Assembly: GCF_030691015.1 (NCBI RefSeq)
Contig: NZ_JAUYFF010000014.1
Location: 1 to 64,000 of the forward strand
Source: Sulfuricurvum sp.
Lineage (GTDB): Bacteria; Campylobacterota; Campylobacteria; Campylobacterales; Sulfurimonadaceae
Direction: 5' to 3'
DNA length: 64,000 nt
A program made the position numbers and the translations under genes. The notes beneath the pieces were generated by a model that saw nothing but the letters and a program-made list of their open reading frames with translations, was not told the DNA's origin and made no database searches. Positions 18,906-35,622 of this stretch are shown piece after piece (position 1 is the stretch's first letter; every line of letters starts with the position of its first letter).

Positions 18906-18922
18906 GTAAATAAATATTTTAC
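18906..18922. promoter_or_regulatory. 17-bp palindrome upstream of selD (site 1)
   Basis: GTAAATAAATATTTTAC, extended by AA on the left and TT on the right. It shares the GTWAA-N7-TTWAC pattern with four other exact-pattern sites and one near-copy in this window, all near selenium or formate genes. It lies 70 bases before the selD start, a suitable operator position. Confidence 0.6.
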
Positions 18923-18991
18923 TTTTTCAGTCTAAATTCAATTTTAACCATTACAATTCTTGAATAAGTAATAAAAAGAATAGGGAATTGT

Positions 18992-20041
18992 ATGATGATG
19001 AATACCGATGCTAAACTCACAAAATTTGTCCGTGCTTCAGGGTGTGCCGCCAAGCTTTCACCCGGATCTTTAGCGGAATCGACATGTCACATCCAATCGT
19101 TTCACAAAGACTTGATTGTCGGTTTTGAAGGAAATGAAGATGCGGGAGTCTATAAAATCAATGATGATTTGGCTATTGTCCAGACCGTTGATTTTATTAC
19201 TCCTGTTGTGGATGATCCCTATATCTATGGGCAAATCGCCGCTGCGAATTCACTCAGTGATGTATTTGCGATGGGAGCAGATGCCAAAACGGCGCTCAAT
19301 GTGGTTGGGTTTGACTCTAAAAATCACTCTCCTGAAATTCTCTCCGAAATTATGCGTGGTGGACAGGATAAAGCGACGGAATGCGGAGCCGTTATTGTCG
19401 GGGGACATACGATTCAAACACCTGAAATGGTCTATGGACTCTCATGTACGGGATTTGTCCATCCGCAAAAAGTACTGCGCAATAATACCCCGAAGATCGG
19501 TGATGTCTTGATTTTGACCAAACCTCTGGGGATGGGAATCTTGATTACGGCGATAAAAGCCGATCTTCTTGATCCGGTACTTGCTATGAAAGTAGCCGAG
19601 AATCTCCGAACTCTGAACTATAAAGCCTCATTGATCGCCAGAGAGTCCCATGCTTCGGCGTGTACGGATGTAACGGGATTCGGTTTTATGGGGCACATGC
19701 GGGAGATGAGTGCGGGAAATGTGACGATGCGGGTTGATCTTGCTAAGGTTCCTTATTTTCCCGAAGCGATTGAAATTGCCTCTATGGGAATTATCCCCGC
19801 AGGTTCGCATGCTAACCGTGATTACAATAAACCGCATGTCTATTTAGCCTCGTCGATTGAATTTGAGCGGGAAATGATTTTGTTTGATGCACAGACATCG
19901 GGTGGGTTGTTAGTAAGTGTACCTCAGGAATTTGCACAACAAATGGTAGAAAAATGCATCGATTCAGGTTTAAATGCCGCTATTGTCGGTGATGTTGTAG
20001 CCTATGAGGGGTATGATATTGTAGTCACCGATAGTAATTAA
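18992..20041 (+). CDS. selD: Selenide, water dikinase (selenophosphate synthetase) SelD
   Basis: 349 residues. SelD makes selenophosphate from selenide and ATP, the selenium donor for Sec-tRNA synthesis by SelA. The active-site loop reads ASGCAAKLSPG with Cys18 and Lys21, matching the essential Cys and Lys of E. coli SelD; some homologues use Sec at this Cys, but here the codon is TGT. Gly-rich ATP-site motifs DAGVYKI, DFITPVVDDPY, GGHTIQTPE and DVTGFGFMGH are present. RBS AGGGAATTGT precedes the first of three Met codons. Together with selA, selB and tRNA-Sec nearby it completes the Sec pathway. Confidence 0.97.
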   Translation: MMMNTDAKLTKFVRASGCAAKLSPGSLAESTCHIQSFHKDLIVGFEGNEDAGVYKINDDLAIVQTVDFITPVVDDPYIYGQIAAANSLSDVFAMGADAKTALNVVGFDSKNHSPEILSEIMRGGQDKATECGAVIVGGHTIQTPEMVYGLSCTGFVHPQKVLRNNTPKIGDVLILTKPLGMGILITAIKADLLDPVLAMKVAENLRTLNYKASLIARESHASACTDVTGFGFMGHMREMSAGNVTMRVDLAKVPYFPEAIEIASMGIIPAGSHANRDYNKPHVYLASSIEFEREMILFDAQTSGGLLVSVPQEFAQQMVEKCIDSGLNAAIVGDVVAYEGYDIVVTDSN

Positions 20042-20062
20042 GTCTACTGTAAAGATAAAAAA

Positions 20063-20079
20063 GTTAAAATATTTTTAAC
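20063..20079. promoter_or_regulatory. 17-bp palindrome between selD and the diiron operon (site 2)
   Basis: GTTAAAATATTTTTAAC, within a perfect 21-base dyad (9-base arms, 3-base centre, 20061-20081). It lies about 90 bases before the diiron gene start. It could act as a weak hairpin after selD, but the shared pattern with other promoter-region copies favours a protein-binding site. Confidence 0.6.
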
Positions 20080-20169
20080 TTAATTTTTGGCGCTATAAGG
20101 TCTAAGGCTTAGACAAACAACAGCCGTCGCTTTGATCATGCTGTTGTTCCTGCCTCTATCGGAGACGTT

Positions 20170-21390
20170 ATGGAACGACAAGACCTCTTTTTAATGAACA
20201 CGTATGTCGCAGAATATACGATACGTTCTTCTTCCCTCACTCAGGCTTGGCTTTTGCGCCTTAATGCACTTCTTCCGACACTTCGGATGGGGGAACTCTT
20301 TAAAGTTACCGTTCTCCAGCGCTCCGTCTCTTTTGAATTTGAAGGGTGGGTACAGGTCAATCGATGCTCTTTAGTAGCCACCAGTTCCGATCTTGAAGGT
20401 TTCTCGTATCTCGTGAGAAAAGATTTTGAATCGCATACCCTATCGGATGAACACGGATTTGACGGTCGGAGCGAACCGACGCTTGATGTCGCGCCGAAAC
20501 TTTTTGGTTTAATGCCCCGCGGTGCCCATATCGAGAACTCTTCTCCTCTGTATCCTTTTGAACTGAGCGAAAAAGAGTTTCTTTGGGCGAAAAATGTCAC
20601 ACGGCTTTATGAAGAAGCGAAGCAGAATCAATGGAGTGCCGATATCGATATCGATTGGGCGGCGATTCCCGATCTTGATCCTGTGATTGAAACGGCGATA
20701 TGTCAGGTGATGACCTATTTAGCGGAAAATGAGTTCTCTGCTTTGTATATTCCCGGAAAATTTTTGTCCAAGATTTCCCCCTATTATATGGAATTGGTGA
20801 TGTTTTTGGGAACGATCATTTATGATGAAGCGCGTCATATCGAAGCGTTTTCACGCCGTGCCAATGCAAAAAAAATAGGACTGCAATACTCGACGACCGC
20901 AACACAGCGTTCCCTCTACTCTCTTTTTATCGAAAAAGACTATTTCAAAACCTCGTTTTTACTTCATGTATTGGGAGAGGGGACCTTTTTGGATCTGCTC
21001 GATTTTCTGATCAAATACGCACCCGATCCGGTCACGAAAAAAATTGTCACCCTTGCCAAAAAAGATGAACAGCGTCATGTCAATTACGGATTGGTACATG
21101 TCAAAGCACTTGTCCAAGCCAATCCTAAAAGAATAGCGTACCTGAAAGAGGCGGTAGATAGTCGAAAAGTGTATTTGGATGAGATGAATCAAGATAATGA
21201 ACTTTTGCTCTCCTCTTTAGCCATTTTAGCCGGAGGAAGTGATGAAGAGGGGTATGCTCTCGGCTATGAGCGGGTGCAGCAACTTAAAAAAAGGATGGGA
21301 GAAAACCGAGTGCGCCGCATGATTGAATGCGGATTTGATGAAGAAACAGCCAAAGAGATATCCATGTCTCACACCGCGAATTTTATGTAA
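20170..21390 (+). CDS. Diiron ferritin-like (R2-type) protein of unknown function
   Basis: 406 residues; RBS GGAG five bases before the ATG. The C-terminal 230 residues show the two-times (Glu + ExxH) ligand set of a carboxylate-bridged diiron site: Glu186 or Glu188 (LAENEF), E220-A-R-H223, Glu270 (LGEGTF) and E300-Q-R-H303. This is the ligand pattern of R2 proteins, R2-like oxidases and N-oxygenases. The first 150 residues form a separate alpha/beta domain I do not recognise. No ribonucleotide reductase large subunit is nearby. It heads an operon with an acyl-CoA-dehydrogenase-like protein (10-base gap) and a PhnD-like protein (15-base gap), suggesting an oxidative reaction on a small substrate. 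Confidence 0.8.
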   Translation: MERQDLFLMNTYVAEYTIRSSSLTQAWLLRLNALLPTLRMGELFKVTVLQRSVSFEFEGWVQVNRCSLVATSSDLEGFSYLVRKDFESHTLSDEHGFDGRSEPTLDVAPKLFGLMPRGAHIENSSPLYPFELSEKEFLWAKNVTRLYEEAKQNQWSADIDIDWAAIPDLDPVIETAICQVMTYLAENEFSALYIPGKFLSKISPYYMELVMFLGTIIYDEARHIEAFSRRANAKKIGLQYSTTATQRSLYSLFIEKDYFKTSFLLHVLGEGTFLDLLDFLIKYAPDPVTKKIVTLAKKDEQRHVNYGLVHVKALVQANPKRIAYLKEAVDSRKVYLDEMNQDNELLLSSLAILAGGSDEEGYALGYERVQQLKKRMGENRVRRMIECGFDEETAKEISMSHTANFM

Positions 21391-21400
21391 GGACAAATGA

Positions 21401-22525
21401 ATGGGATTATTTGAAGAAGTGAGCACTTTTGCACAATGTCATGTCGCGCCGTATACGGTGCAAGTCGATAGAGAAGGTGTATTTCCGAAAGAAGCCTATG
21501 CGGCTCTTAAAAAAGAGGGGTATACGGGATTGCTGGTCCCCAAGGAGTACGGCGGAGGCTCTGGGAGTATTGTCGATCACGTCGAAACATGTATGGCTCT
21601 GGGAAGTGTCTGTGCAACGACCGCACTGTGTTACATGATGCATAACGTTGCGACAATGTCCATTGTTGCTTTCGGAACATCGGAACAAAAAGAGTTTTAT
21701 CTGCCGAAAATCGCTTCAGGTGAGTTGGCTTTGGCCCTTGCTTTTAGTGAAACAGGGACGGGAACCCATTTTTACAATCCCGAAATTAAAGCGGTAAAAA
21801 CGGAGAACGGATATCTTCTCAACGGTAAAAAAAGCTTTGTGACCTCGGCGCATCATGCCGATTATTATCTTGTTTTAGCCGCAAATCCCGAAGGAGAAGG
21901 GCTGAGCGTTTTCGCAACTCCCAATACGATGGAAGGGATGCGTCATGACGATAGTGCTTGGGACGGATTAGGGATGCGAGGAAATGCCAGTGTCCCTGTC
22001 TATTATGAGAATGTGCCCGTCTGCGACGATCATCTCATAGGGGCTCACGGAGACGGAGTCGGAATCGTCTTTAATGTGGTTGCTCCGTTCTTTATTCTGG
22101 GGCTTGCATCGGTCTATACTGGATTGTCGCTTGCGGCAAGTGCATGCGTAATCGATCATGCGGCGTCACGCACGTATACGGACGGCTCGACCCTCTCACA
22201 AATCGAAACCGTACAGCTGCATATTGCTTCTATATTCTCTTCGGCCAGTGCTTCCAAAGCGTTAACGCTCAATGCGGCACAAGCCGCGCTGGAAGGACGA
22301 AGCGATGCTCTGGCGTTGATTATATCGGCTCGATTGGAAGCGAGTACCAATGCGGTGGACGTATGCAGCCGTGCAATGAAAATCGGAGGAGGGCACGCAT
22401 ACAGCAAACGGCTTCCGCTTGAGCGCTATTTGAGAGATGCGTATGCCGCTGCAATCATGGCTCCCTCAACCGATGTCCTCAGCGTATGGCTCGGTAAAGC
22501 GTTAACCGGACAACAAATACCCTAA
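21401..22525 (+). CDS. Acyl-CoA-dehydrogenase-family flavoprotein lacking the usual catalytic Glu
   Basis: 374 residues. The family plan is complete: helical N-domain, FAD-contact segment LALAFSETGTGTH, beta domain with GKKSFVTSAHHADYY and GLGMRGNAS, and a helical C-domain with KIGGGHAYSKRLPLERYLRDA. Where MCAD-type enzymes carry the catalytic Glu in YEGT, this protein reads IMAPSTDVL, so that base is absent. Several relatives without it (DszC, SfnB types) are flavin monooxygenases acting on organosulfur compounds; whether this one is such an enzyme is inference. It sits between the diiron and PhnD-like genes in one operon. Confidence 0.85.
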   Translation: MGLFEEVSTFAQCHVAPYTVQVDREGVFPKEAYAALKKEGYTGLLVPKEYGGGSGSIVDHVETCMALGSVCATTALCYMMHNVATMSIVAFGTSEQKEFYLPKIASGELALALAFSETGTGTHFYNPEIKAVKTENGYLLNGKKSFVTSAHHADYYLVLAANPEGEGLSVFATPNTMEGMRHDDSAWDGLGMRGNASVPVYYENVPVCDDHLIGAHGDGVGIVFNVVAPFFILGLASVYTGLSLAASACVIDHAASRTYTDGSTLSQIETVQLHIASIFSSASASKALTLNAAQAALEGRSDALALIISARLEASTNAVDVCSRAMKIGGGHAYSKRLPLERYLRDAYAAAIMAPSTDVLSVWLGKALTGQQIP

Positions 22526-22540
22526 ATAAAAGGAATTAAC

Positions 22541-23347
22541 ATGGCATCATTAATGGTAGGTGTGGTCGCGTATGACCCGAAAGTAGTCCTCATTTGGGAG
22601 ATCATCCGTGATTATGCCAAAGAGAAAAAGTTTGATCTCGATTATGTATTGTTTTCCAATTATGAGACACAGGTACAGGCGCTATTGGATAAAAAAGTGG
22701 ACTTGGCATGGAATACGAATGTCGCGTGGCTTCGGACGAAAAAACGTGCTCCGTTTGCGGAAGCACTCTTGATGCGCGATAGCGATGTCGATTTTACCTC
22801 GATGTTTATCGCCCATGAAGATTCCAATATCCAAACATTGGAAGATTTGAAAAATAAACGGGTCTGTTTCGGCAGTGGTGACTCGGCACAGGCGTTTATC
22901 CTCCCAGCGTATTATTTAAAAGAGCAAGGGTTAGAGCCTAATCGCGATTATACGATGAATCGTGTGGACAGTGATTTAGGGAAACACGGCGATACCGGAC
23001 GAAGCGAATACGATATTTTGGAAAAACTCAAAAATAACGAATATGACGCTATCGCCCTTGCCACATCGACATGGATGCGGATGATCGAGCTGGGACTGAG
23101 CGGTTCGTCGCTCAGACCGTTTTACAAAAGTCGAGGGTATTCGCATTGCAATTTCACCAACATTACCCCTAACGTATCTTATGTCAATGAATTTGTCGAA
23201 TTTATGCTGGGGATGGATACTCAGCGCAGCGACATCACCAAAATGATGGAGATGGAAGCTTTGTCCAAATGGGTGAAAACGGGAGAGTATGAGCTACAAG
23301 GGTATAATGAGCTTGAGCAGGCAATGGAGTGGTTGAATCTGTTTTAA
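22541..23347 (+). CDS. PhnD-like binding protein without signal peptide
   Basis: 268 residues starting MASLMVGVVAYDPKVVLIWE with no leader or membrane segment; RBS AAGGAATTAAC precedes the ATG. The PhnD fold is recognisable: YETQVQALLDKKVDLAWNTN (substrate-contact loop), a TSMFIAHEDSNIQTLEDLKNKRVCFG strand-helix cut here into its parts, and a hinge at GDSAQAFILPAYYL. A cytoplasmic location is expected, so it cannot feed an ABC transporter. It may be a substrate carrier or sensor for the two enzymes upstream. The 3' end overlaps the opposing regulator gene by 4 bases. Confidence 0.78.
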   Translation: MASLMVGVVAYDPKVVLIWEIIRDYAKEKKFDLDYVLFSNYETQVQALLDKKVDLAWNTNVAWLRTKKRAPFAEALLMRDSDVDFTSMFIAHEDSNIQTLEDLKNKRVCFGSGDSAQAFILPAYYLKEQGLEPNRDYTMNRVDSDLGKHGDTGRSEYDILEKLKNNEYDAIALATSTWMRMIELGLSGSSLRPFYKSRGYSHCNFTNITPNVSYVNEFVEFMLGMDTQRSDITKMMEMEALSKWVKTGEYELQGYNELEQAMEWLNLF

Positions 23348-24012
23348 GATGCAATCCCACTTTTCTCACTGTTTGATGAGGCATTTACGCGGTAGATTTT
23401 ATTTTTAAGCTTGGTGACAATACCGACCTCAATCAACTGTCTAAACGTTGAAACAACGGTCGGTTTACTGACGTTGAGCGCCGCCATAATATCTTCATAG
23501 GAGCCGTAAAAGACATTTTCTGCGTCGACATGCTCGAAGAGATAGCGGATAATCTCTATTTTTTTCCCTCCGACAAACGCCCCGATCCCCTCAAGCATCC
23601 GGTCTTTGAGCCATAATTCATCTTCTTTCGCTTTCAGGGCAATCGATTTATCGATCAATTCGAGCATTTCATCTGCCATAATCGGTTTAAGCAGATACCC
23701 GTCAACACGGAGTTTGATTGCATCAAGAAGATAGTTTGTTTCCGAATGGGCTGTTGTGATAATAACGGCAGCCAGCGGAATATTTCGTTTTTTTATTTCG
23801 GAGATGAGCGCTATTCCATTCATATTCGGCATTAAGATATCGGTAATAACAATATCGATTTTGTGGTTGGAAAGTTGCTCTAGCGCAGTGATTCCATCGG
23901 TTGCCGTATAGACTTTGGCCACAAAGTCTTCTAAAATAAATGACATTTGATTTAAAATAGGTACTTCATCGTCGACGATTAGGACACTGTATTTACTAAG
24001 TGCGTGGTTCAT
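23344..24012 (-). CDS. Response regulator with receiver and winged-helix-like DNA-binding domain
   Basis: 222 residues. Receiver domain residues 8-125 with acidic pair D14-D15 and phospho-Asp58 (IVITDILMPNMNG), then a C-terminal domain (about 150-210) in which YEDIMAALNVSKPTVVSTFRQLIE has the turn of a helix-turn-helix followed by a wing (GIVTKLKNKIYRV). It is not an OmpR or NarL type. The ATG overlaps the kinase stop (ATGA at 24009-24012). It is a candidate regulator for the nearby GTWAA-N7-TTWAC sites. Confidence 0.88.
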   Translation of the reverse strand: MNHALSKYSVLIVDDEVPILNQMSFILEDFVAKVYTATDGITALEQLSNHKIDIVITDILMPNMNGIALISEIKKRNIPLAAVIITTAHSETNYLLDAIKLRVDGYLLKPIMADEMLELIDKSIALKAKEDELWLKDRMLEGIGAFVGGKKIEIIRYLFEHVDAENVFYGSYEDIMAALNVSKPTVVSTFRQLIEVGIVTKLKNKIYRVNASSNSEKSGIAS

Positions 24013-25625
24013 GTTTTACTCTCAATCTCGAATAGGGGTATAGTGATTTTAAAAGAAGCACAATTATAATAGGTTTCATTAAAAAGCAATCTGATATTTC
24101 TCGCACTGATAATACCCTGAAACTGGTCCGCTATGATTTTTTGCGTCATATACAATCCGATTCCGGTTCCGGCTGATTGATGTTTTGTCGTAAAATAGGG
24201 TTCGAATATTCTTTTAAGGACGGAGGGGGAAATACCCCCTCCATTGTCAATGATGCGGATAATCAAGAGTGACTTTTCCGGTTTATGGGTGATATGGATT
24301 CGTATAATTTTGAGTTTGTTGGGTGAGTTTAATAATGCGTCTTTTGCATTATTGAGCAGATTGATAATGATTTGGGAGAAATCGTTCGGATAGCCTGAAA
24401 TCATGATCTCCGCTTTAGTATTGATTTCAACACTAATATTCGCATGATGTAATATCCCCTCAATCAAGCTAACCGTATGGCGAATCGTCTCGAGGAGGGG
24501 GAAAACGGTTTTGGCTTTATTCGGCTTAAAGTAGTTTTGGAAACTCTCTATCGTATCGGACATGGTGTTTGCGATACGAAGACCTTCGGTGACTTGGGAA
24601 TCGATAAACTCCGGCGTCAATTTATTACTGCGGCTTTTGAGTCGGAATGTTTGTATCAGGATGGTTAATGCGTTTAGCGGCTGTCTCCACTGATGGGCAA
24701 TATTAGAGATCATCTCTCCCATTGACGCTAATTTAGCCTGCTGGTGAAGCATCTCGTCTTTTAGACGGCTTTGGCGAATCTCATGAACGATACGAAGTTC
24801 AAGGGAAGTGTTCAGATCGATAAGTTCTTTGGTTTTCTCGCGTACTCGCGCTTCCAAGGATTGGTGTAATGTTTTTATATGTTCTAATATGAAGTATGCC
24901 AAAAAGACAGAAAATCCTAAAACAAGAAACATCATGACAAAAATGATCCAAGAAGTCGCTCCGAATAGACGATCCGTTTTCTCTTTTTCATAGATTGAAC
25001 ATTGCAGATGAAAGGCCGTGAGCTGTTCTAAATAAATGTTCGTCGTATCTAAAATCGGGTAGAGATCGCTTTTGATAAGTGCATCGGCCTGCGGACGTTG
25101 ATTATTTTTGTAAAGGAGCGTTATCGTATCGATGGTTTTTAAGAGACGATGGATGTTGAGGTCCGCTTTCGCATAGATTTCGTCTTCATCGATCATAATA
25201 GTGTTGGGAATAGGAGAAAGAAATGTGGATAGTATCGTTTCATCCATCGTATCAAAAAAATTGGTTTGTAGGTCGTGTCGTGACAAAGAGTATTCATTCC
25301 AACGCAAATCGAGATTTTTTTTAAGGATATTGAGGACTTCATAGGTCTTCTCAACATCGGTGTGGTTATCGATGATGTCTCGGTAGGTATTGAGTATGTT
25401 GAGGGAATGAACGTCTTTGATCGTCTGGAGGCGGGCGATTGAGAGGGTGCGCAGATGAAAGGAATTATCGAAGCTGTTTTTCATTCCATACAGGGTCAAT
25501 GTCGCGATGAATCCGATGATCAAAATTCCTAATGCGGTAACAGCGATCAATATTCGAGTCTTCATCCCCAATGAAAGTTGATAAAAGACATTCAAAAAAC
25601 GGCACTGTTTACTCATCGACATCAC
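24009..25625 (-). CDS. Membrane sensor histidine kinase (HQWRQPL type)
   Basis: 538 residues at most; alternative in-frame Met codons lie at 25622 and 25616. Membrane segments at about residues 24-46 and 222-245 enclose a periplasmic helical sensor. The H-box is SNIAHQWRQPLNALTILI, a form common in Campylobacterota. ATPase motifs follow: NLLNNAKDAL (N box), DNGGGI (G1) and GTGIGLYM (G2). It overlaps the binding-protein gene by 17 bases, so the anchored binding protein probably delivers the signal to its periplasmic part. Confidence 0.92.
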   Translation of the reverse strand: MMSMSKQCRFLNVFYQLSLGMKTRILIAVTALGILIIGFIATLTLYGMKNSFDNSFHLRTLSIARLQTIKDVHSLNILNTYRDIIDNHTDVEKTYEVLNILKKNLDLRWNEYSLSRHDLQTNFFDTMDETILSTFLSPIPNTIMIDEDEIYAKADLNIHRLLKTIDTITLLYKNNQRPQADALIKSDLYPILDTTNIYLEQLTAFHLQCSIYEKEKTDRLFGATSWIIFVMMFLVLGFSVFLAYFILEHIKTLHQSLEARVREKTKELIDLNTSLELRIVHEIRQSRLKDEMLHQQAKLASMGEMISNIAHQWRQPLNALTILIQTFRLKSRSNKLTPEFIDSQVTEGLRIANTMSDTIESFQNYFKPNKAKTVFPLLETIRHTVSLIEGILHHANISVEINTKAEIMISGYPNDFSQIIINLLNNAKDALLNSPNKLKIIRIHITHKPEKSLLIIRIIDNGGGISPSVLKRIFEPYFTTKHQSAGTGIGLYMTQKIIADQFQGIISARNIRLLFNETYYNCASFKITIPLFEIESKT

Positions 25626-26769
25626 CTCCGGTTTCGGAGTTTAACGGTAAAAGGTAGACATTTTGCAGTCCTTGATGTTGTCTCTTGCTATAACGGATCA
25701 TTTGTCGATCAACAAGAGAAAATTCAAGTTTCGAGAGGGCACGTTCAAATGAAGAGCGTGATACCGTTGAGGAGTTGCTCAGTGCTTTAAGTATGACTTG
25801 GGATGCTAGATATCCCTCAAATGATATGGATGTCGGTTCTTTTGAGGGATAATAGTGCTTATAAAGACGTTTGAAAAGGGCAATTTCAGGGAGATTTTTA
25901 CTCAAGGGAGGGACGGTTTGAGTCATGTACATCGGCACATTCTTCAAATTTTCCGACAGTAGCGCTTTGCGGAGAGGTTCATAGCCGACAAAAGAATAGG
26001 TGTAAAAGGTAAGATTCGGGTTAAACTGTGCCGTTTTTCGGATAAACTCGACGGTCGGCTTTAAGGCACCACCGATTACAACGGCATCTGGATGTGCTTT
26101 GGTAATCTCATTAAATGCATAATGGATGGAGAGGGTATTACGATTGTAGACCCCCTCGGCAATTACTTTAATGGATGTAGGACGAACTGCTTCTTGCAGG
26201 GCGTATAATGATGCAAGGCCATAGCTATCGTTTTGATAAAAAATTGCAATTTTTTGAATATTTTCTCTTTGCATATGATGAACCATTCGACGTGCTTCAT
26301 CAGCATAGCTCGGACGGAGAGTAAAGAGATGCTCATAAGGGTAGTTATATAAAAACTCGGCACCGCTGAGAGGCATTAAAAAAGGGATTTGCATTCTGGC
26401 CGTAATTTTGAGTGCCTCTTCCGAGGGGGGAGTCCCGACAACCCCTATAATCCCGAATAAATCAGGATCTTTCATTAAAGAAATAATATTTTTCCTCGTG
26501 ATGAAAGGCTCGTATTGATCATCCAGTACACGTAGCTTGACGTGGCGATTTTGTATTCCGCCGGCATCATTGAATGCCTTAAATCCGCACACTATTCCAT
26601 TCGTATAATCGATGCCGTTTTCTTGCAATGGACCCGAAAGTGCGGCACTGCTACCAAACACGATGTCGTTTTTATTTTCGCGTTCAAAAGGGAATAGAAA
26701 ATAGAGTACGATCAGTGTGATGAGAAGCAATAGGAGAGATATGGGTTTAACATTTTTTTGCATCATCAC
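25609..26769 (-). CDS. Membrane-anchored periplasmic ligand-binding protein (LivK/Peripla_BP_6 type)
   Basis: 386 residues. An N-terminal anchor (ISLLLLLITLIVLYFLFPF) has no obvious cleavage site. The body follows the branched-chain-amino-acid/amide receptor family: FGSSAALSGPLQENG, YTNGIVCGFKAFNDAGG and LRVLDDQYEP at the N-lobe, and FEGYLASQVILKAL near the C-terminus. No permease or ATPase genes adjoin. Gene order binding protein-kinase-regulator marks a three-component sensory system. It follows selB by 74 bases on the same strand, so it may be co-transcribed with selAB. The ligand is unknown; formate or an amide is possible. Confidence 0.85.
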   Translation of the reverse strand: MMMQKNVKPISLLLLLITLIVLYFLFPFERENKNDIVFGSSAALSGPLQENGIDYTNGIVCGFKAFNDAGGIQNRHVKLRVLDDQYEPFITRKNIISLMKDPDLFGIIGVVGTPPSEEALKITARMQIPFLMPLSGAEFLYNYPYEHLFTLRPSYADEARRMVHHMQRENIQKIAIFYQNDSYGLASLYALQEAVRPTSIKVIAEGVYNRNTLSIHYAFNEITKAHPDAVVIGGALKPTVEFIRKTAQFNPNLTFYTYSFVGYEPLRKALLSENLKNVPMYMTQTVPPLSKNLPEIALFKRLYKHYYPSKEPTSISFEGYLASQVILKALSNSSTVSRSSFERALSKLEFSLVDRQMIRYSKRQHQGLQNVYLLPLNSETGGDVDE

Positions 26770-26784
26770 ACTTTAAGAATAAAA

Positions 26785-26801
26785 ATAAAAAAATAGTTTA
26801 C
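26785..26801. promoter_or_regulatory. Near-copy of the 17-bp palindrome before the sensory operon (site 6)
   Basis: ATAAAAAAATAGTTTAC differs from the site at 30341-30357 by its first base only, so the left arm is imperfect. It lies 16 bases before the binding-protein start codon, a position that would block translation initiation or transcription if bound. Confidence 0.45.
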
Positions 26802-26843
26802 TTTATATTCGATAAATTTGGTTTAAAATAGGATAGTTTTCAA

Positions 26844-28676
26844 TCATGCCGTCTTCAAAGATCGGCGAGTACCCTCGCATTGTATATCTTCAAATCGGTC
26901 AAGATACTCGAGATAGGCTATCAAATACTTTCGGCTTAGAGCTGTTTTCGCTTTAGCCAGCTCTATATCGACATATCCATATTCGCTAATCACTCCGCGC
27001 AGATACTGCATAGTGCGAGATAGGTGAGGTGCGCTGATAAAAAGGTTATGCGCCAATCGGATCACTTTTCCGGCACTGCAGAGCCGTTTCATAGTCTCAT
27101 CTCCGTGAATACGATCAAGATCGAGACTCTCATAAATCACATACGGTGCCTGAGGTGCCCACTCCTGTGTCTCTAAAATACCATAGAGAGACTCTTCCAT
27201 ATACTGCGGCATATCTTCAATATCACAATGGATACTGCGGTATAACCCCTCACTGAAGATAAGCTCATCATTCGATTCGAGCTGAGTGAGGACTTCTTGG
27301 CAAAGATTGGCAGATGCCCAAGTAAACCGTAAATGGAGTGAGTTTTTAGAGAGGAGGGCACGTCTGTTTTTTTTATAAATCGCTCGAACATACTCTTTAA
27401 GCATCTCTAACGTGCTAGAGGGGTAGAGTACTTTTTCATCATGATCGAGGTAAGAATTTGCAACTCCCATTGCTAATTCAAGCGCAGATGCATGATCCAT
27501 CCCGAAACGCTGATAGGCTCCGATCAAACCGAAACCTTTCTTATGAATCTCCATCAGCATAGCAAACGCTTCGGAGAGTTTTTTCTGCTGTAGTAAAAGA
27601 AGAAATTCATTTTTTTGTTTTCGTTTCATAGGATCGGCTATCGGATTAAGAACTTCCCCTCCGCCGAGTGTCCCTTGCGCATCACGCAGAATGAATTTTT
27701 CACGATACAAGGCGTAAATAGGAGTCGTACTTTCAAAAATGGCAATAGCGTAAGAGTCATGTTCGGAGATAATTTTTAATATGACGTTGTGGCGGGCTGA
27801 ACCTATGTAGAGCGTCGCTTCACTTTGATGTTTCAGGCTAACCCCTTTGAGGGGAGTGATCATGACGTCAATCTGCATGAAGCCGCGGAGAAAATTAGGG
27901 GTACAGAGGATATCTCCCCGTTTAAGATCATGCGATTTTACTCCGGAGAGGTTAAGGGCTATACGCTCATTCGGAAGGGCTGTGGGAACATGGTGCAATC
28001 CCGAATGGATCGTTCTGACAATCGCTGAAGTTTTGAGTCGCGGGATCGTGATTTTATCTTTGGTTTTTAACGACCCGCCTAAAACGGTTCCGGTGACAAT
28101 AGTTCCATAACCGTCTTTGGAAAAACTACGATCTATATAATAACGAAAATAAGGCTCTTGCGGACGTTGAGGTAAATCATACGTGAAGAGTTTATGTTTG
28201 AGCTGTTCATAGGATGAGGGATCATGTCGTCCGACATGGGCAGAAAACAGGCTCTCCAAACCGATTTTTTCGATGAGGTTTAAAATATCTTTTTCGACGA
28301 TTGCCGCAACGCGGGATTCTACCAGATCACATTTGGTTAGAACCAAAATAACACTTTTAACGCCGGCGAGATGAGCCAGTTCGAGATGCTCAATACTTTG
28401 TTTGCAAATCCCTTCATTAGCCGCGACAATCAGTAGAAGAACGTCGAAACCGAAAACCCCAGCCAAATAGTGTTTGACAAATTTTTCATGCCCGGGAACA
28501 TCGACTAAAAATATCCGTTTTTCCTCTTCATCCATCAGGGTAAAGCTGAGATCCATCGTCAAACCGCGCCGTTTTTCTTCGCTGGTCTGATCCCCGTCAA
28601 AACCGTTTAGTGCACGAATAAGGGATGTTTTTCCGTGATCGACATGTCCGGCGAGACCGACTATAGAGGTTTTCAT
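26844..28676 (-). CDS. selB: Selenocysteine-specific elongation factor SelB
   Basis: 610 residues. The GTPase domain has GHVDHGKTSLIRAL (G1), DVPGHEKF (G3) and LTKCDL (G4). EF-Tu-like domains 2 and 3 follow, including GTIVTGTVLGGSL and LNLSGVKSHDLKRGDILC. The C-terminal 230 residues hold the winged-helix repeats that bind the SECIS hairpin of the mRNA. SelB delivers Sec-tRNA to UGA codons such as the one in fdhA. It overlaps selA by 4 bases (ATGA at 28673-28676). Confidence 0.97.
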   Translation of the reverse strand: MKTSIVGLAGHVDHGKTSLIRALNGFDGDQTSEEKRRGLTMDLSFTLMDEEEKRIFLVDVPGHEKFVKHYLAGVFGFDVLLLIVAANEGICKQSIEHLELAHLAGVKSVILVLTKCDLVESRVAAIVEKDILNLIEKIGLESLFSAHVGRHDPSSYEQLKHKLFTYDLPQRPQEPYFRYYIDRSFSKDGYGTIVTGTVLGGSLKTKDKITIPRLKTSAIVRTIHSGLHHVPTALPNERIALNLSGVKSHDLKRGDILCTPNFLRGFMQIDVMITPLKGVSLKHQSEATLYIGSARHNVILKIISEHDSYAIAIFESTTPIYALYREKFILRDAQGTLGGGEVLNPIADPMKRKQKNEFLLLLQQKKLSEAFAMLMEIHKKGFGLIGAYQRFGMDHASALELAMGVANSYLDHDEKVLYPSSTLEMLKEYVRAIYKKNRRALLSKNSLHLRFTWASANLCQEVLTQLESNDELIFSEGLYRSIHCDIEDMPQYMEESLYGILETQEWAPQAPYVIYESLDLDRIHGDETMKRLCSAGKVIRLAHNLFISAPHLSRTMQYLRGVISEYGYVDIELAKAKTALSRKYLIAYLEYLDRFEDIQCEGTRRSLKTA

Positions 28677-30025
28677 GGACGCTCCTTCAAAACGGTATTT
28701 AAAATCGTCATGACGTGTGAGAGCTCATCATCATCGATACTGCGTAAGTCGAGAAGAACCTTATCTTTTTCGATTCGGGCAATGAGACCTTGGTCACGGA
28801 GTGCTTTGATTAACCGTTCGGCATTTTTAGGATGATCTTCGATAATCAAGGCGAGACTCTCTAGCAAATGCTGCGGAAGTGATCCCCCTCCTGCATAGGT
28901 GGATGTTTTGCCTATAGAAAGTTTATGTGGGTACTCAATACCTGAGAGGATAGCATCAGATTGTATTTGCATCTCACTAAGTGTTTTAGATAAGAGTTTA
29001 TGGGTTTTGATCGCTTGAGGCCCTTTTTGGATATAACGTGTCAGAGTTTTTTCCAATACGGCCATCGTGAGTTTATCCACTCGAAGCATCCGCAAGAGTT
29101 GATTTTTTTTGATGGCATCAATCAACTCTTTTTTTCCGGCGATGATTCCGGCTTGAACGGAGCCCAGCAGCTTGTCTCCGCTGAAACTGACCAGAGAAGG
29201 GGCATGTTCAAACAACGATTTTGCGCACACTTCATTTCCAAGATAAGGAGCCTCAAAAAGATTCAAACTGCCGGCATCATAGTAGTCGATTACATTATGG
29301 GACTGAGCAATCGGTATCAGCTCTTCAAACGCTACCTCATGGGTAAAACCGACAACGGAGAAATTGGAGCGGTGAACCTTCATCATAATGGCACTTTGCG
29401 GAGTGATCGCCGCCGTGTAATCGGAGGCTTTGGTTTTGTTGGTTGTCCCTATCTCTTTGAGTAGGGTACCGCTCTCTCTCATCACATCGGGAATTCTAAA
29501 GGAACCGCCGATCTCTACCAGCTCTCCTCGCGATACGATCGTCTCTTTTCCTTTGGCGAAGGTATTAAGGATCAAAAAGACGGCTGCCGCATTGTTGTTG
29601 ACGACGATGGCATCTTCGCACCCCAGTAGAAATGAGAGTTTTTTAGTCAAATGTCCGTAGCGTTCCCCCCGTTTTCCGCTATCAATATCAAATTCAAGAT
29701 TGCAGTAGCTCCCGATGCTCTCCTGCATTTCATCAAGTATTGATTTTTCGATGGGGCTTCGCCCGAGATTGGTATGCAAAACTATCCCTGTCGCGTTGAT
29801 GAGAGGAATCAATGAATCATGACACAGCGTATCCAGTCGTGATAAGACTATTTGTACCAAAACGGACTCATCGGTACCGTTTTCGATATCGATTTTACCG
29901 TGACGAATCTCTTCAAAGAGTTGACGAGCCAAGAAGGTTAGTGTTTGGCGATTCAGGCTGATAAACTCAGTTCGATCCAAAAATCTTCCCAGTTGAGGGA
30001 TGGCAGGTCTGCTATGGGTCTCCAT
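28673..30025 (-). CDS. selA: L-seryl-tRNA(Sec) selenium transferase SelA
   Basis: 450 residues, the usual SelA length. It converts Ser-tRNA-Sec to Sec-tRNA using selenophosphate and PLP. The PLP lysine is Lys285 in SFSGDKLLGSVQAGII. Other family motifs: INATGIVLHTNLGRSPI, VVNNNAAAVFLIL and YDAGSLNLF. It begins the minus-strand run selA-selB, perhaps continuing into the sensory trio, and is divergent from tRNA-Sec and fdh. Confidence 0.97.
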   Translation of the reverse strand: METHSRPAIPQLGRFLDRTEFISLNRQTLTFLARQLFEEIRHGKIDIENGTDESVLVQIVLSRLDTLCHDSLIPLINATGIVLHTNLGRSPIEKSILDEMQESIGSYCNLEFDIDSGKRGERYGHLTKKLSFLLGCEDAIVVNNNAAAVFLILNTFAKGKETIVSRGELVEIGGSFRIPDVMRESGTLLKEIGTTNKTKASDYTAAITPQSAIMMKVHRSNFSVVGFTHEVAFEELIPIAQSHNVIDYYDAGSLNLFEAPYLGNEVCAKSLFEHAPSLVSFSGDKLLGSVQAGIIAGKKELIDAIKKNQLLRMLRVDKLTMAVLEKTLTRYIQKGPQAIKTHKLLSKTLSEMQIQSDAILSGIEYPHKLSIGKTSTYAGGGSLPQHLLESLALIIEDHPKNAERLIKALRDQGLIARIEKDKVLLDLRSIDDDELSHVMTILNTVLKERP

Positions 30026-30043
30026 CGTAGTGCTCCGATACAG

Positions 30044-30060
30044 GTTAAAAAATATTTAAC
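30044..30060. promoter_or_regulatory. 17-bp palindrome upstream of selA (site 3)
   Basis: GTTAAAAAATATTTAAC, 18 bases before the selA start on minus and 30 bases before tRNA-Sec on plus, so it could control either. Same GTWAA-N7-TTWAC pattern as the other sites. Confidence 0.6.
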
Positions 30061-30089
30061 TTTTATTTAGCTAGAATGGTATTTCGAGA

Positions 30090-30188
30090 TGGGAGGTATG
30101 TGACCCTGGTGGGCACCATGGACTTCAAACCCATTGTTCGGGCAGGTGTCTGTTCGAAGGAAGGTTCAATTCCTTCACCTTCTCGCCA
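30090..30188 (+). tRNA. selC: tRNA-Sec (anticodon TCA)
   Basis: About 99 bases, folded by hand. Acceptor TGGGAGGT pairs with ACCTTCTC (one terminal T-C mismatch and two G-T pairs), then G and an encoded CCA. The D arm has GTG(A)CCC / GGGCAC around TGGT with one bulged A. Anticodon loop CTTCAAA carries TCA at 30125-30127. The long variable arm is a 9-bp stem (TTCGGGCAG / CTGTTCGAA) with loop GTGT, and the T arm is GAAGG-TTCAATT-CCTTC. The 8-bp acceptor, 5-bp T stem and long variable arm are the hallmarks of bacterial tRNA-Sec. The exact 5' end is uncertain by a base or two. Confidence 0.93.
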
Positions 30189-30229
30189 ACTCCTCTTTTT
30201 TCTCTACATCTATTCCGCAAAATCATAAA

Positions 30230-30250
30230 AGGTTAAAAATATTTTAACCT
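30230..30250. promoter_or_regulatory. Perfect 21-base palindrome between tRNA-Sec and fdh (site 4)
   Basis: AGGTTAAAA-ATA-TTTTAACCT: 9-base arms around a 3-base centre; the 17-base core is 30232-30248. It begins 42 bases after tRNA-Sec and lies 185 bases before the first fdh gene. No T-tract follows, which argues against a simple terminator. Confidence 0.6.
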
Positions 30251-30340
30251 AACTATCTTATATTTCGCTTGATTTTTCTATAATATTAAATAAACAACTT
30301 TAATATTAATTTAAGCTACAATGAAGAATAATTACAAAAC

Positions 30341-30357
30341 GTAAAAAAATAGTTTAC
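30341..30357. promoter_or_regulatory. 17-bp palindrome upstream of the fdh operon (site 5)
   Basis: GTAAAAAAATAGTTTAC, 78 bases before the first fdh gene. Sixteen of 17 bases match the site before the sensory operon at 26785-26801. Confidence 0.6.
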
Positions 30358-30371
30358 TTATTGCCCAAAAA

Positions 30372-30386
30372 GATACAGGCTGTATC
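30372..30386. promoter_or_regulatory. Perfect dyad in the fdh leader
   Basis: GATACAGGCTGTATC has 7-base arms around a single central base, so it is a protein-binding dyad rather than a hairpin. It is enclosed by TTGCC (30361-30365) and GGCAA (30397-30401). It could serve a second regulator of formate dehydrogenase, for example a molybdate or redox regulator. Confidence 0.4.
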
Positions 30387-30434: not shown

Positions 30435-31937
30435 ATGACCGATTATAGCGCTATGACATACGCCTGTATGTATTTATTAGAAAACTCACCTGATACCGAT
30501 AAAGATAAACTGATTCGTATTCAACAAACAGTGGATGACACTTTATTTGATAATACGCTTGATTTCTCTTATCCTCTCAATGATCAACATTCTATTGTTA
30601 TGATAAACGACGGTACGTATAGTGTAATAGGATCATTAGACGAAGGGTTCAAGGTACAAGTTGTCGATGCTTCTAAAATTGTTAGGATTGAAGGACGTGC
30701 CGGCGATTATCAAGTAAACGTTCGAGCGGGCAACGAGATCGTTAAATATCCTGCAGCATCTTTGATTTACTGCGGAGATAACAATCCATGGATTAAATAC
30801 GATGCGATTGAGATTCACGGCAATCTCTCCCGTGTGGCTTCCCAACTTACTGCCAGAGCAACCAAAAACACCTTCACCAAAAGCCTTCTTTTCACGGAAG
30901 GACAATGCGATTACGCTTCCAAAGATACACCTGCATGCCGCGCATGTCTGGAGAGCTGTGAGTATTCCGCTCTCGTCGAAGACACAGAGGCAAAAACCAT
31001 CCATTTACGTCTAAGCGACTGTACCGAATGCGGTTCATGTGTTGCGGTATGCCCATCCGGAGCGATCCAAAATTCCCGTTTTAATGTTGCGGGATTAATT
31101 GCAGCGTTGGAAAATACGGAAGGTTACGGTGTTCTTGTCGCAACCGATGCAGACTTGATGAAACTCTCTTCACCACTCTACCGCGAAACGGTGATACTCA
31201 CTATTCCGAATTATTCTCTTCTTAATGAACTCTATCTCTCATTATTGGTTCTCAAATCAGGGGGAGACGTTTACTTCCCTGATATGACAACACTGCCGGT
31301 ATCCACCCAAGCAGCTATTTGCAACGTAAACCGCATCTTCGAACGCTTCGGTGGAGATGTGATCGGCGATATAGTCTCAGCGTCTCGCCATCCCAAACGT
31401 TTTGCACCGATTGCTCGACGATTGGACAATATGCCGCTTCGTATGGCGGTGAGCGAAGGATTGGCATCTCTAAAAGGATATAGCAACAACGTCTATACTT
31501 TGCCAAATTCACTTTTCAGTGATCTGCACATCGATGATAAATGTACTTTGTGCATGGGATGTGCCTATGTGTGCAAAAGCGGTGCATTTCAAGCGCAACC
31601 GGAGAATCAATCTCTGGCTCTTAATCCTGCATTGTGTACCGGATGCGGTCATTGTGAGAGTATCTGTCCTGAACACTCTATTACTTTGGCACCGGGGCGT
31701 TTTAGAGAAGAGGAAACTTATGTAACCTTTTCGGCGGTTGCCAAAGATGACGTTTTTTGCTGTGTCGAATGCGGAAAACCGTTTGCAACGGAAAAAGCCA
31801 TTGCGAAAGTAGCGGGTATGTTTGCTTCATTGATGTGGGACGATGTTAAAACTCGAACGCTCTATTGCTGCGGCGAGTGCAAACCGAAGTTGATGCTCAA
31901 AGATCACTTTGATAATACGGCTAAGGGAGGATATTAA
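30435..31937 (+). CDS. Formate-dehydrogenase-associated polyferredoxin-like Fe-S protein
   Basis: 500 residues, no signal peptide. The N-terminal 150 residues are not recognised. Two regions carry ferredoxin-type Cys groups: CRACLESC with CTECGSCVAVCP (about residues 165-210) and CTLCMGCAYVC with CTGCGHCESICP (about 370-415). The C-terminus has two further Cys pairs (CCVECGKPF and CCGECKPK). Between them is a domain of about 150 residues without Cys motifs. First gene of the fdh operon; its stop is 1 base into the chaperone start. A role in electron transfer or in maturing FdhA is inferred from position only. Confidence 0.75.
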   Translation: MTDYSAMTYACMYLLENSPDTDKDKLIRIQQTVDDTLFDNTLDFSYPLNDQHSIVMINDGTYSVIGSLDEGFKVQVVDASKIVRIEGRAGDYQVNVRAGNEIVKYPAASLIYCGDNNPWIKYDAIEIHGNLSRVASQLTARATKNTFTKSLLFTEGQCDYASKDTPACRACLESCEYSALVEDTEAKTIHLRLSDCTECGSCVAVCPSGAIQNSRFNVAGLIAALENTEGYGVLVATDADLMKLSSPLYRETVILTIPNYSLLNELYLSLLVLKSGGDVYFPDMTTLPVSTQAAICNVNRIFERFGGDVIGDIVSASRHPKRFAPIARRLDNMPLRMAVSEGLASLKGYSNNVYTLPNSLFSDLHIDDKCTLCMGCAYVCKSGAFQAQPENQSLALNPALCTGCGHCESICPEHSITLAPGRFREEETYVTFSAVAKDDVFCCVECGKPFATEKAIAKVAGMFASLMWDDVKTRTLYCCGECKPKLMLKDHFDNTAKGGY

Positions 31938-32518
31938 TGGAATCGCTTGTTGGCGCTAGAGCCTCAATCTATAGTGTCCTAGGTTCGTTATACCGAAACG
32001 AAGGGGTAGAGAAAGATTCAGAATCGATCCTCACGGTACTTCGTGCTGTGAGTGAATCGCCGTTTGCCGAGGGGATCACGGAGTACACTGATCGGATGAT
32101 CACCGCATTGCAAGATCATAAAGACGAGGTAGCGCGGGAAGCGCATGTTTTGTTTAATCTCCCGTTCGGCGATTTTATCAATTCTTCTATGTCTTATTAT
32201 CATGATCAACGTGAACTCGGGATGCCGACGATTATGACCAAAGAGATTATGTGTGAAGCCGGATACATTAAAGCCGATTTCGTGAGTGTCGGGGAAGATG
32301 AAGCCGGTATAGTATTGGGTCTTTCCGCCAGCTTGCTTAACGATGGACATATTGAGTTGCATAAAAAACTCTTCCAAAATGTTATTGAGCCTTATATCGG
32401 AGGATTTATCGATGCGCAGTTTAACAGTGATCGAGCTGATTTTTACCAAGAGTGTGCTTCGTTTTTAGCCCTTTTTATCGCATTCGAAAAATCGTATTTT
32501 GAATTCTATTTATCTTAG
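31937..32518 (+). CDS. TorD-family molybdoenzyme chaperone
   Basis: 193 residues, all helical, with the TorD/DmsD signature region FNLPFGDFINSSMSYYHDQR followed by the AGYIKADFVSVGEDEAGI stretch. Such chaperones bind the TAT leader of a molybdoenzyme and hold it until cofactor loading is complete. Its place two genes before fdhA makes FdhA the likely client. It overlaps the Fe-S gene stop by one base. Confidence 0.85.
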   Translation: MESLVGARASIYSVLGSLYRNEGVEKDSESILTVLRAVSESPFAEGITEYTDRMITALQDHKDEVAREAHVLFNLPFGDFINSSMSYYHDQRELGMPTIMTKEIMCEAGYIKADFVSVGEDEAGIVLGLSASLLNDGHIELHKKLFQNVIEPYIGGFIDAQFNSDRADFYQECASFLALFIAFEKSYFEFYLS

Positions 32519-32532
32519 GAAAGGAGGTAACA

Positions 32533-32748
32533 ATGGACACTAACGGACGACGAGATTTTCTCAAACGGTTAGGGATCGGAGGCGTTGTTGCGGCGGGAAG
32601 TTTAGGCTTGATCACCGCGACGCATCCCAGTCGCAATCGGGGTGAACACACCGAAGGTGATGGGGTTGCTGTCGGGAATTCCCGCAAAGATGAAACACTC
32701 TATACAAAAACGGAATATTGGGACAAATTTTATAAATCTGCCCTCTAA
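32533..32748 (+). CDS. Small TAT-leader protein of the fdh region
   Basis: 71 residues. A twin-arginine leader (GRRDFLKRLGIGGVVAAGSL) is followed by a short hydrophilic tail ending in WDKFYKSAL. It matches the short TAT-target proteins commonly found immediately before formate dehydrogenase alpha genes. RBS AAAGGAGG is strong. It may be an inner-membrane-anchored accessory subunit; no catalytic feature is visible. Confidence 0.85.
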   Translation: MDTNGRRDFLKRLGIGGVVAAGSLGLITATHPSRNRGEHTEGDGVAVGNSRKDETLYTKTEYWDKFYKSAL

Positions 32749-32769
32749 TTTTTATGAAAAGGAGAACGA

Positions 32770-35610
32770 ATGAGTCCAAGAAACTCAACGGAATTGTTGA
32801 ATTCGAAGATGGGACGCCGATCATTTTTAAAAATGGGCGCGCTCACTTCGGTCGGTGCGGTTGCGGTTTGCTCAGCAAGTGAACCGATAGTCAAAGCAAC
32901 GCCGCAACAACTGAAAGAAGCCTATCCGGGTTCAAAAAAAGTGAAAACTATTTGTACCCACTGCTCGGTCGGATGCGGAATTATTGCGGAAGTAAAAGAC
33001 GGTGTCTGGGTAAGACAAGAGGTCGCTCAAGAGCATCCTGTAAGTCTCGGCGGTCATTGCTGTAAAGGTGCCGACCTGATCGATAAAGTACGCTCAACGA
33101 ACCGTTTGCGCTATCCGACAGTTAAAAAAGACGGTGTCTGGGAACGTATCGGATGGGATGAAGCGCTTGATTCGGTGAGTGCTCAAATCCAAGCTCTACA
33201 AAAAAAATATGGACCTGATAGCATCATGATGCTTGGGTCAGCAAAAGTTTCGAACGAACAATCGTACTATATCCGCAAGTTTGCCGCGTTTATGGGAACG
33301 AATAATATCGATCATCAGGCTCGTATCTGACATAGCCCTACAGTCGCCGGTGTGGCGAATACACTTGGGTATGGCGGTATGACCAACCATCTGGGAGATA
33401 TGCAAAATTCGAAAGTCATTTTGATTATGGGAGCTAATCCTGCGGTCAATCACCCTGTCGGAATGCAACACATTCTAAAAGGGAAAGAGAACGGTGCGAA
33501 AATTATTTCGATCGATCCTCGATATACTAAAACATCTGCACATGCGGATTTGTTTGCACGTATTCGAACCGGAACCGATATCGCATTTTTATACGGAATG
33601 ATCCGTTACATTGTTAAAAATAACTTGCATGACAAGCAGTATTTGGATGAGCGTGTTTTCGATTGGGAATCCATTGTTGTCGAAGCAGAGCAGTATACGC
33701 CGGACGTTGTTGCAAATGTGTGCGGATGTACAGCGGAAAAATTCCTAGAAGTGGTGAAGCTTTTTGCTGAAAACTCTCCGGGTTGTTTGATCTGGAATCA
33801 GGGATGGACACAGCATACGATCGGAACCAGTAACACCCGTTTAGGGCCGATTATGCAAATGTTCCTCGGAAATATCGGAAAAGTGGGTGGCGGATGTAAC
33901 ATTCTTCGCGGACATGACAATGTTCAAGGGGCGAGTGACATGGCCAACCTATCCGACATTTTGCCGGGATACTACCCGATCAATGAGGGGTCTTGGAAAT
34001 ATTATTCAGGACAATGGCAAGTCGATTACGAATGGTTAAAAGGTCGATTTAAAACCAAAGATATGATGGAGAAAAAAGGGTTTGCCCTCTCTACATGGCC
34101 ATGGGGAGTTATTGATGATGAGAATGCTGAAAACAATGCAGGAACGCCTCTTAAAGCGTTGATTTGTATCGGTAACGGTATTTCAACGATTACAATGACC
34201 CATAAAACGAAAGAAGCGTTGGACAAACTTGATTTGGTCGTCTTTATCGATCCGTATGTCAATGATGCGGCGGTTATTACCGATCGTACCGATAATATGT
34301 TCTTGCTTCCGGCAGCCAGCCAAGTGGAAAGTTCAGGTTCGGTAGCGGCGACAAATCGCAGTTATCAATGGCGTTCACAGGTTGTCAAGCCTCTTTATGA
34401 AGCAAAAGAAGACCACGACATTTTATTTGAATTTGCAAAACGTCTCGGATTCTATGAGGAATTTACCCGTTCGTTGAAAAATGGCAAACCGAGTTACGAA
34501 TGGCCTGAAGATGCGACGAGAGAATTTAATCGTGCCGTCAAAACAATTGGTCTACAAGGGGTAACACCGGAACGTATGAAACGCCAACAAGAGAATTGGG
34601 CGCTGTTTGATCCACTTACTCTAAGAGGCTCCGGTGTGGTTGAGGGCGAATATTACGGATTGCCGTGGCCGTGCTGGAGTGATAAACATCCGGGAACTCC
34701 GATCATGTACCGAACCGATGTATCGGTTATGGAAGGTGGTATGGGATTCCGTGCAGGATGGACGGACAAGGGACCAGATGGCAAACCGGTGGTTGTCGCT
34801 GAGAAAAACGGACAAACATTGCTTGCGGTTAATGAACCGATCGGTTCACGATTCAAAGGCGGACATCTTGAGATTACCGCAGACAATATCGAATCTTTCG
34901 GCATCACATTAACGGCTGAAGAAAAAGAGAAAGTCAAAGGTAAAAACTGGAAAAACGATAATACGTATATTCTGGTTAACAAAGCGTTGGAAGCAGGACT
35001 TTGTCCATACGGAAACGGAAAAGCGAGAGCGCGTGCATGGGATTGGGCTGACCAACTTCCTAAACATCGTGAACCGCTTCACAGCTTCCGTCAGGATTTG
35101 GTTGCCAAATATCCGACGTTTGAAGACAAAAAAGATCACTATCGTACGAATATTCGTTACGCCAGTGAGCAAAATAAACAAAACTGGGTTGCGGATTTCC
35201 CGATCAATGTTGTCACAGGACGTATCGTTGAACACATGGGTACGGGAACCGAAACTCGAGCCTCAAAATATTTGGCCGAACTTTCAGGGGAGATGTACGC
35301 ACATATCCATCCGACACTCGCCAAAAAATATGGGGTTGATAACGGTGACATGATTTGGGTACATGGAACGGGCGAAGGTAAGATTAAAGTGAAGGCGGTC
35401 TACAGTTATTCGGTCGCTGAAACGGATATTTTCATGCCGCAAAACTTTTCGGGTCTATGGAGCGGTAAAAGCCTCGTAGACAAATATCCGAAGGGGACTG
35501 CACCGTATGCGCTCGGAGAAAACTCGAATCAGGTTACAAGTTACGGGTATGACATTGTCACCGCTTGCCCTGAAACTAAATGTACGCTCGTGCGTATTGA
35601 AAAAGCGTAG
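32770..35610 (+). CDS. fdhA: Formate dehydrogenase catalytic subunit FdhA, selenocysteine-containing
   Basis: 946 residues when the TGA at 33328-33330 is read as Sec187. TAT leader MGRRSFLKMGALTSVGAVAV, then the [4Fe-4S] motif CTHCSVGC...GGHCCKGADL, the molybdopterin domain with QARI-U-HSPT (Sec followed by His, the known catalytic pair), and GANPAVNHPVG and WNQGWTQHT contacts. It oxidises formate at a Mo/W bis-pterin guanine cofactor in the periplasm and passes electrons to FdhB and FdhC. Reading the TGA as a stop would give a useless 186-residue fragment. The SECIS hairpin directly downstream and the full Sec gene set support decoding. Confidence 0.96.
33328..33358 (+). promoter_or_regulatory. 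UGA (Sec) codon and bacterial SECIS hairpin in fdhA
   Basis: Counting the U of UGA as 1, the hairpin TCGCC-GGTGT-GGCGA lies at 33344-33358. The bases at positions 17, 23 and 24 are U, G and U, the same three that SelB needs in the E. coli fdhF SECIS (from established knowledge). The spacing and GGU apical loop also match. Confidence 0.88.
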
Positions 35611-35622
35611 GGGGGCTGATAA

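Follow-up and report, generated by a model that had tools for sequence, protein, structure and literature searches.

The selenocysteine (Sec) genes of this Sulfuricurvum sp. (Campylobacterota; genome, 2.33 Mb) lie close to a formate dehydrogenase operon, a sensory operon and a three-gene operon with a diiron protein, and palindromes of similar sequence precede these units. The question raised by the locus is whether the palindromes are operators of one regulator and, if so, which regulator binds them. We analyzed a window comprising a 64-kb stretch of this genome (64,000 nucleotides). An earlier note on this DNA had listed five 17-bp sites and a sixth, variant site and had proposed a shared regulon. 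The features concerned are as follows, with the palindromes given without strand.

18906 to 18922: palindrome GTAAATAAATATTTTAC, an exact match, predicted operator upstream of selD
18932 to 18948: degenerate second palindrome CTAAATTCAATTTTAAC, lying 26 bp farther downstream than the selD site
18992 to 20041, plus strand: selD, selenide water dikinase (TIGR00476 selD, 357 bits)
20063 to 20079: palindrome GTTAAAATATTTTTAAC, an exact match, conserved, predicted operator upstream of the three-gene diiron operon
20170 to 21390, plus strand: R2lox-like diiron protein, gene 1 of the three-gene operon (weak matches to NCBIfam R2-like ligand-binding oxidase and to R2/R2lox in the PDB)
21401 to 22525, plus strand: acyl-CoA dehydrogenase-like protein (nearest family, Rv1679/FadE16)
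22541 to 23347, plus strand: PhnD-like binding protein (nearest family, Rv1680), without an obvious signal peptide
23344 to 24012, minus strand: response regulator with a receiver domain and a RepL/Crp-like winged helix, proposed as the binding factor from its co-distribution with the sites
24009 to 25625, minus strand: membrane sensor histidine kinase (domain match)
25609 to 26769, minus strand: Peripla_BP_6 binding protein (domain match), proposed signal receptor
26785 to 26801: variant palindrome ATAAAAAAATAGTTTAC, predicted autoregulatory site upstream of the binding-protein/kinase/regulator operon
26844 to 28676, minus strand: selB, Sec-specific elongation factor (from sequence and relatives)
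28673 to 30025, minus strand: selA, selenocysteine synthase (from sequence and relatives)
30044 to 30060: palindrome GTTAAAAAATATTTAAC, an exact match, conserved, predicted operator between the divergent selA and selC
30091 to 30184, plus strand: selC, tRNA-Sec, divergent from selA
30232 to 30248: palindrome GTTAAAAATATTTTAAC, an exact match, conserved, distal fdh site between selC and fdh
30341 to 30357: palindrome GTAAAAAAATAGTTTAC, an exact match, conserved, proximal fdh site
30435 to 37156, plus strand: fdh operon, encoding a 4Fe-4S protein, a chaperone-like protein, FdhA, FdhB and FdhC (from sequence, domains and relatives)
32770 to 35610, plus strand: fdhA, with an in-frame TGA, following ...NNIDHQARI, that is read through in the translation

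Counts of the pattern were compared with those expected by chance. GTWAA-N7-TTWAC matched the window exactly five times, at 18906, 20063, 30044, 30232 and 30341, in agreement with the coordinates noted before; shuffles of the window gave a mean of 0.27, and none of 100 reached five. Allowing one mismatch yielded 15 matches versus 9.4 expected, a number reached in 5 of 100 shuffles. As this relaxed pattern barely exceeded chance, the sixth site at 26785, which departs from the consensus only in its first base and matches the 30341 site at 16 of 17 positions, rests on its position and conservation rather than on a count. All six sites are intergenic. The earlier note's scan of the intergenic DNA by eye had given no other copy, which agrees with the count of exact matches but omits the degenerate seventh copy at 18932, in which the right half-site is conserved and is followed by a conserved, −10-like TACAAT. 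Similarly, the 30044 site, described as preceding selA, is also upstream of the divergent selC, and the 30232 site does lie upstream of fdh but has selC on its other side. A scan of the whole genome, which the earlier note had called for, detected 25 copies of the loose GTWAA-N7-TTWAC form versus 17 of a reversed control, so that this consensus alone is unspecific genome-wide; the form with an all-A/T centre, GTWAA-W7-TTWAC, occurred four times in the genome, and all four copies were at the present locus. Three loose copies (C4:77039, C11:169194 and C6:25054), located within unrelated open reading frames or at their margins, were not counted as targets.

Conservation of the sites was examined among congeners. 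selA was present in only 5 of the 41 Sulfuricurvum genomes searched, including that of the window. These five genomes contained four or five strict sites each, mostly at this locus, compared with zero to two per genome in the 20 sel-negative genomes scanned. The response regulator was found in all five sel-positive genomes and was absent from the sel-negative genomes checked. Wherever the relevant stretch could be compared, each site adjoined the same gene in the relatives, and 58 of 60 columns in the site arms were invariant versus 299 of 531 other intergenic columns (Fisher P = 1e-11). In the alignment, the sites appeared as islands of identity within changing flanks. The selD site was retained in three relatives with diverging flanks; the 26785 site read ATAAA-N7-TTTAC in all four relatives, with arms unchanged across five genomes; and the two fdh sites were 109 bp apart, centre to centre, in five of five genomes. 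This pattern of sequence change indicates that the sites are under selection. With respect to predicted −10 positions, the selD and selC sites precede a −10-like box, and the site at the sensory operon overlaps a putative start. A call of activation or repression from these predicted positions was dropped, as the answers were mixed between promoters. Some sites are near start codons; hence, the direction of control may vary between promoters.

Several other features of these genes were recorded. A SECIS_3 match at 33325 to 33383 within fdhA was below the gathering score (E = 6e-6), and the named relatives of the diiron gene were all from Sulfuricurvum assemblies. The diiron and fdh operons have conserved 5′ leaders, which matched no Rfam family and had unremarkable folding energies. 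The strongly conserved diiron leader (20095 to 20169) contains a 15-bp palindrome, GTCTAAGGCTTAGAC, and a stem, ACAACAGC...GCTGTTGT, without an Rfam match, and the fdh leader has a conserved palindrome, GATACAGGCTGTATC, at 30372 to 30386, downstream of the proximal operator. The gene after fdhD (38057 to 39112) encodes a divergent relative of NifS-like cysteine desulfurases, possibly serving selenium delivery, and is in the same place in a second genome (G002). In at least two Sulfuricurvum relatives (L092, 11788 to 15026; L038, 3648 to 6800), an additional cassette separates the PhnD-like gene from that of the regulator; it encodes a 4Fe-4S protein as well as a molybdopterin oxidoreductase that apparently contains Cys rather than Sec.

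In order to extend the comparison, the regulator was searched for across the class and its loci were fetched, giving about 70 related loci. Three of the families, f9, f14 and f20, resemble Arcobacteraceae, Campylobacteraceae and Sulfurospirillaceae, a tentative assignment. In several families the binding protein-kinase-regulator genes are divergent from fdh, often with selA-selB directly downstream of them. The palindrome at these loci was GTAAA-N6-TTTAC, which at 16 bp is one base shorter than the Sulfuricurvum form. Spacings of 0 to 12 were counted in non-coding DNA, lineage by lineage. The N6 form was found 54 times in f9 and 11 and 18 times for the two paralogues of f20, with about one or less expected in each case, and six times in f1; the Sulfuricurvum loci had 20 copies of the N7 form versus 0.1 expected. 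Each lineage exhibited one main spacing peak, and the remaining spacings were near background.

The N6 form was then sought locus by locus with the arms GTHAA/TTDAC. Of 48 clade A loci, 45 had it upstream of the sensory operon (0.44 expected), as did 19 of 19 loci with the unlinked clade B sensory operon of f20, a second copy far from sel and fdh (0.14 expected); species within each family are related, and the counted loci are not independent. The form also preceded selD in 20 of 20 cases, selA in 10 of 34, with many of these genes located immediately after the regulator, and the diiron operon, there located away from sel, in 6 of 14. The links among the Sec machinery, the selenoenzyme, the sensory operon and the three-gene operon are thus conserved both within Sulfuricurvum and, with a spacer one base shorter and with unlinked genes included, in other families, which supports the proposal that they have one regulator in common. 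A predicted operator that is conserved between species and precedes several operons of linked function is what a regulon presents, and, from its sequence, the locus looks like a real one with a testable regulator. In f1 and f9, the N6 site before selA includes the likely selA start codon (L086 7819, L214 5189 and L115 15354; e.g., GTAAAAATGTCTTTAC). In some f9 genomes, the DNA preceding the sensory operon or fdh contains one N7 and one N6 site, separated by about 55 bp (L119 13346/13401; L125 13170/13226 and 18101/18156).

Two explanations that do without a shared regulator were weighed. AT-rich promoter furniture, such as A-tracts and −10-like or UP-like elements, might be palindromic by accident; the site centres are indeed nearly all A/T, and the genome has 25 copies of the loose consensus versus 17 of its control. 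However, the arms are better conserved than the flanks, the sites are missing from sel-negative congeners, and above all the enrichment of a single spacing in each lineage is difficult to obtain from such elements, making this explanation very improbable. Descent or duplication of a promoter region, producing alike sites without shared regulation, would agree with the near identity of the 26785 and 30341 sites, but the flanks of the sites are unrelated and other families have the N6 form at the same genes in different genomic positions; we regard this explanation as still more remote. Computation established the palindromes, how well they are conserved and that they are linked both to these genes and to the regulator family. 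We consider it likely that the response regulator at 23344 to 24012 uses them as its operators, controlling the sel, fdh and diiron targets.

The regulator is encoded by the last gene of the binding-protein/kinase/regulator operon. Its receiver domain (Response_reg, 2.8e-26) has the phospho-acceptor D58 within an invariant TD motif, and its output domain is a winged helix closest to RepL (1.5e-6), with a weak match to HTH_Crp_2 (0.01); it is, therefore, a DNA-binding two-component response regulator by composition. The kinase gene overlaps the regulator gene and encodes an HATPase_c domain (5e-16) and an HQWRQP motif, as expected of a cognate kinase. The regulator does not belong to the Crp/Fnr family, since its N terminus is a receiver rather than a sensor domain of the cyclic-nucleotide-binding type, nor to the OmpR/PhoB type, as no Trans_reg_C domain was detected at E 0.001 in the full-length protein or at E 1 in the C-terminal part. 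The sequence of the recognition helix, SKPT(V/L), is maintained between regulator clades. An AlphaFold model of the regulator, built from five close sequences, was of poor quality (pLDDT 51) and was left unused.

By architecture, the system resembles TorT-TorS-TorR of Escherichia coli, in which a molybdoenzyme operon is controlled by a binding protein, a response regulator and a membrane kinase whose periplasmic domain is helical. The winged helix of TorR is of the OmpR type, and TorR recognizes sites other than the palindromes described here. NssR and other Crp/Fnr proteins of Campylobacterota have a Crp-like winged helix, no receiver domain and short, palindromic AT-rich sites, which differ in having their arms in the reverse order (TTAAC-N4-GTTAA). 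BumSR of Campylobacter jejuni was set aside as kin of the regulator, as its BumS component is a sensor phosphatase of the PAS type (PMC11796366) and the kinase here is a membrane protein.

The alternative with most in its favour is that the palindromes are operators of another factor encoded elsewhere, of LysR_Se/HrsM type, Crp/Fnr type or a metal regulator, and that the sensory operon is a mere target, which would likewise show a site upstream of it. For Sec genes, the candidate regulator put forward in the literature is a LysR subfamily (PMC5322559). As in the present case, the LysR_Se/HrsM gene adjoins the Sec genes that it is proposed to control; it differs in having a LysR fold and a proposed cytoplasmic effector, where the locus here has a response regulator and a periplasmic sensor. 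No LysR gene was seen between positions 15 and 38 kb of the window by inspection of open reading frames and Pfam analysis of the main ones. Moreover, the sites track the response regulator across families. In f20 the only constant strict site in the genome is that at the unlinked operon copy: in 5 of 12 genomes (2.6 to 3.0 Mb), the sole GTAAA-W6-TTKAC sequence was upstream of the clade B operon. Six selA-positive genomes without the regulator (at E 1e-25) had no site near sel or fdh. As the unlinked copy carries the site and the regulator-less genomes do not, the regulator, which the earlier note had proposed to test for binding, is a better choice of binder than another factor, which we consider unlikely; from these sequence comparisons the cluster's response regulator is the best candidate. 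The other known candidate for selenium-linked control, FdhTU of C. jejuni, affects the selenium-dependent formate dehydrogenase, but these accessory proteins are reported to act after transcription (PMC6682613) and are not DNA-binding regulators; neither LysR_Se nor FdhTU fits. We found no description of the binding protein-kinase-regulator/palindrome system in the open-access literature.

Control by the response regulator could operate as follows. The periplasmic binding protein would detect a ligand, and the membrane kinase, which has a periplasmic helical domain, would pass the signal on. A phosphorylated dimer of the regulator would then bind two GTWAA half-sites via its RepL/Crp-like winged helices upstream of selD, selA-selB, selC, the operon for the Sec-containing formate dehydrogenase and the diiron/acyl-CoA-dehydrogenase-like/PhnD-like operon, as well as at a site in its own promoter. 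Binding, phosphorylation, ligand sensing and coordinate control are inferred; the label selenium/formate describes the genes of the regulon and not its signal. The regulator family is tied to the 16-bp GTAAA-N6-TTTAC form in most relatives and to the 17-bp N7 form in the Sulfuricurvum lineage.

This difference in spacing was compared with the phylogeny of the regulators. Trees placed the Sulfuricurvum regulator in clade B with those of G093 and f14, a clade different from that usually located beside selA; the deep split in these trees joins long branches. As it falls in this paralogue clade, its function is not transferable by orthology alone. For the clade B regulators of f14, which are nearer kin, the operon encoding them lacked such a site. 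G093 contains the nearest regulator outside the genus, and the single N7 site found there precedes selA. Upstream of the G093 kinase gene is an apparent frameshifted remnant of a binding-protein gene (L207, ~9500 to 9950). The clade B placement and the N7 site of G093 suggest, therefore, that targets are common with clade A loci and that regulator lineage and spacing differ, an attractive reading with few lineages behind it and weakened by the f14 operons and by a few N7 sites next to N6 sites in f9. We give roughly even chances to the broader proposal that a dedicated periplasm-sensing two-component system controls the entire Sec supply chain and its client enzyme in Campylobacterota and that one lineage was swapped to a paralogous regulator as its operators lengthened from 16 to 17 bp.

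Little is known of how bacteria match selenocysteine synthesis to demand; the publications found are limited to a predicted LysR subfamily and the posttranscriptional FdhTU. This locus provides a named candidate regulator, precise predicted operators and a conserved list of targets, and it ties to the regulon an uncharacterised diiron operon with kin in the mycobacterial Rv1679-Rv1680 families. The N6/N7 difference between paralogue lineages offers a natural case of co-change of operator and regulator and, if the proposed swap is true, would represent a wholesale shift in operator spacing that is traceable gene by gene.
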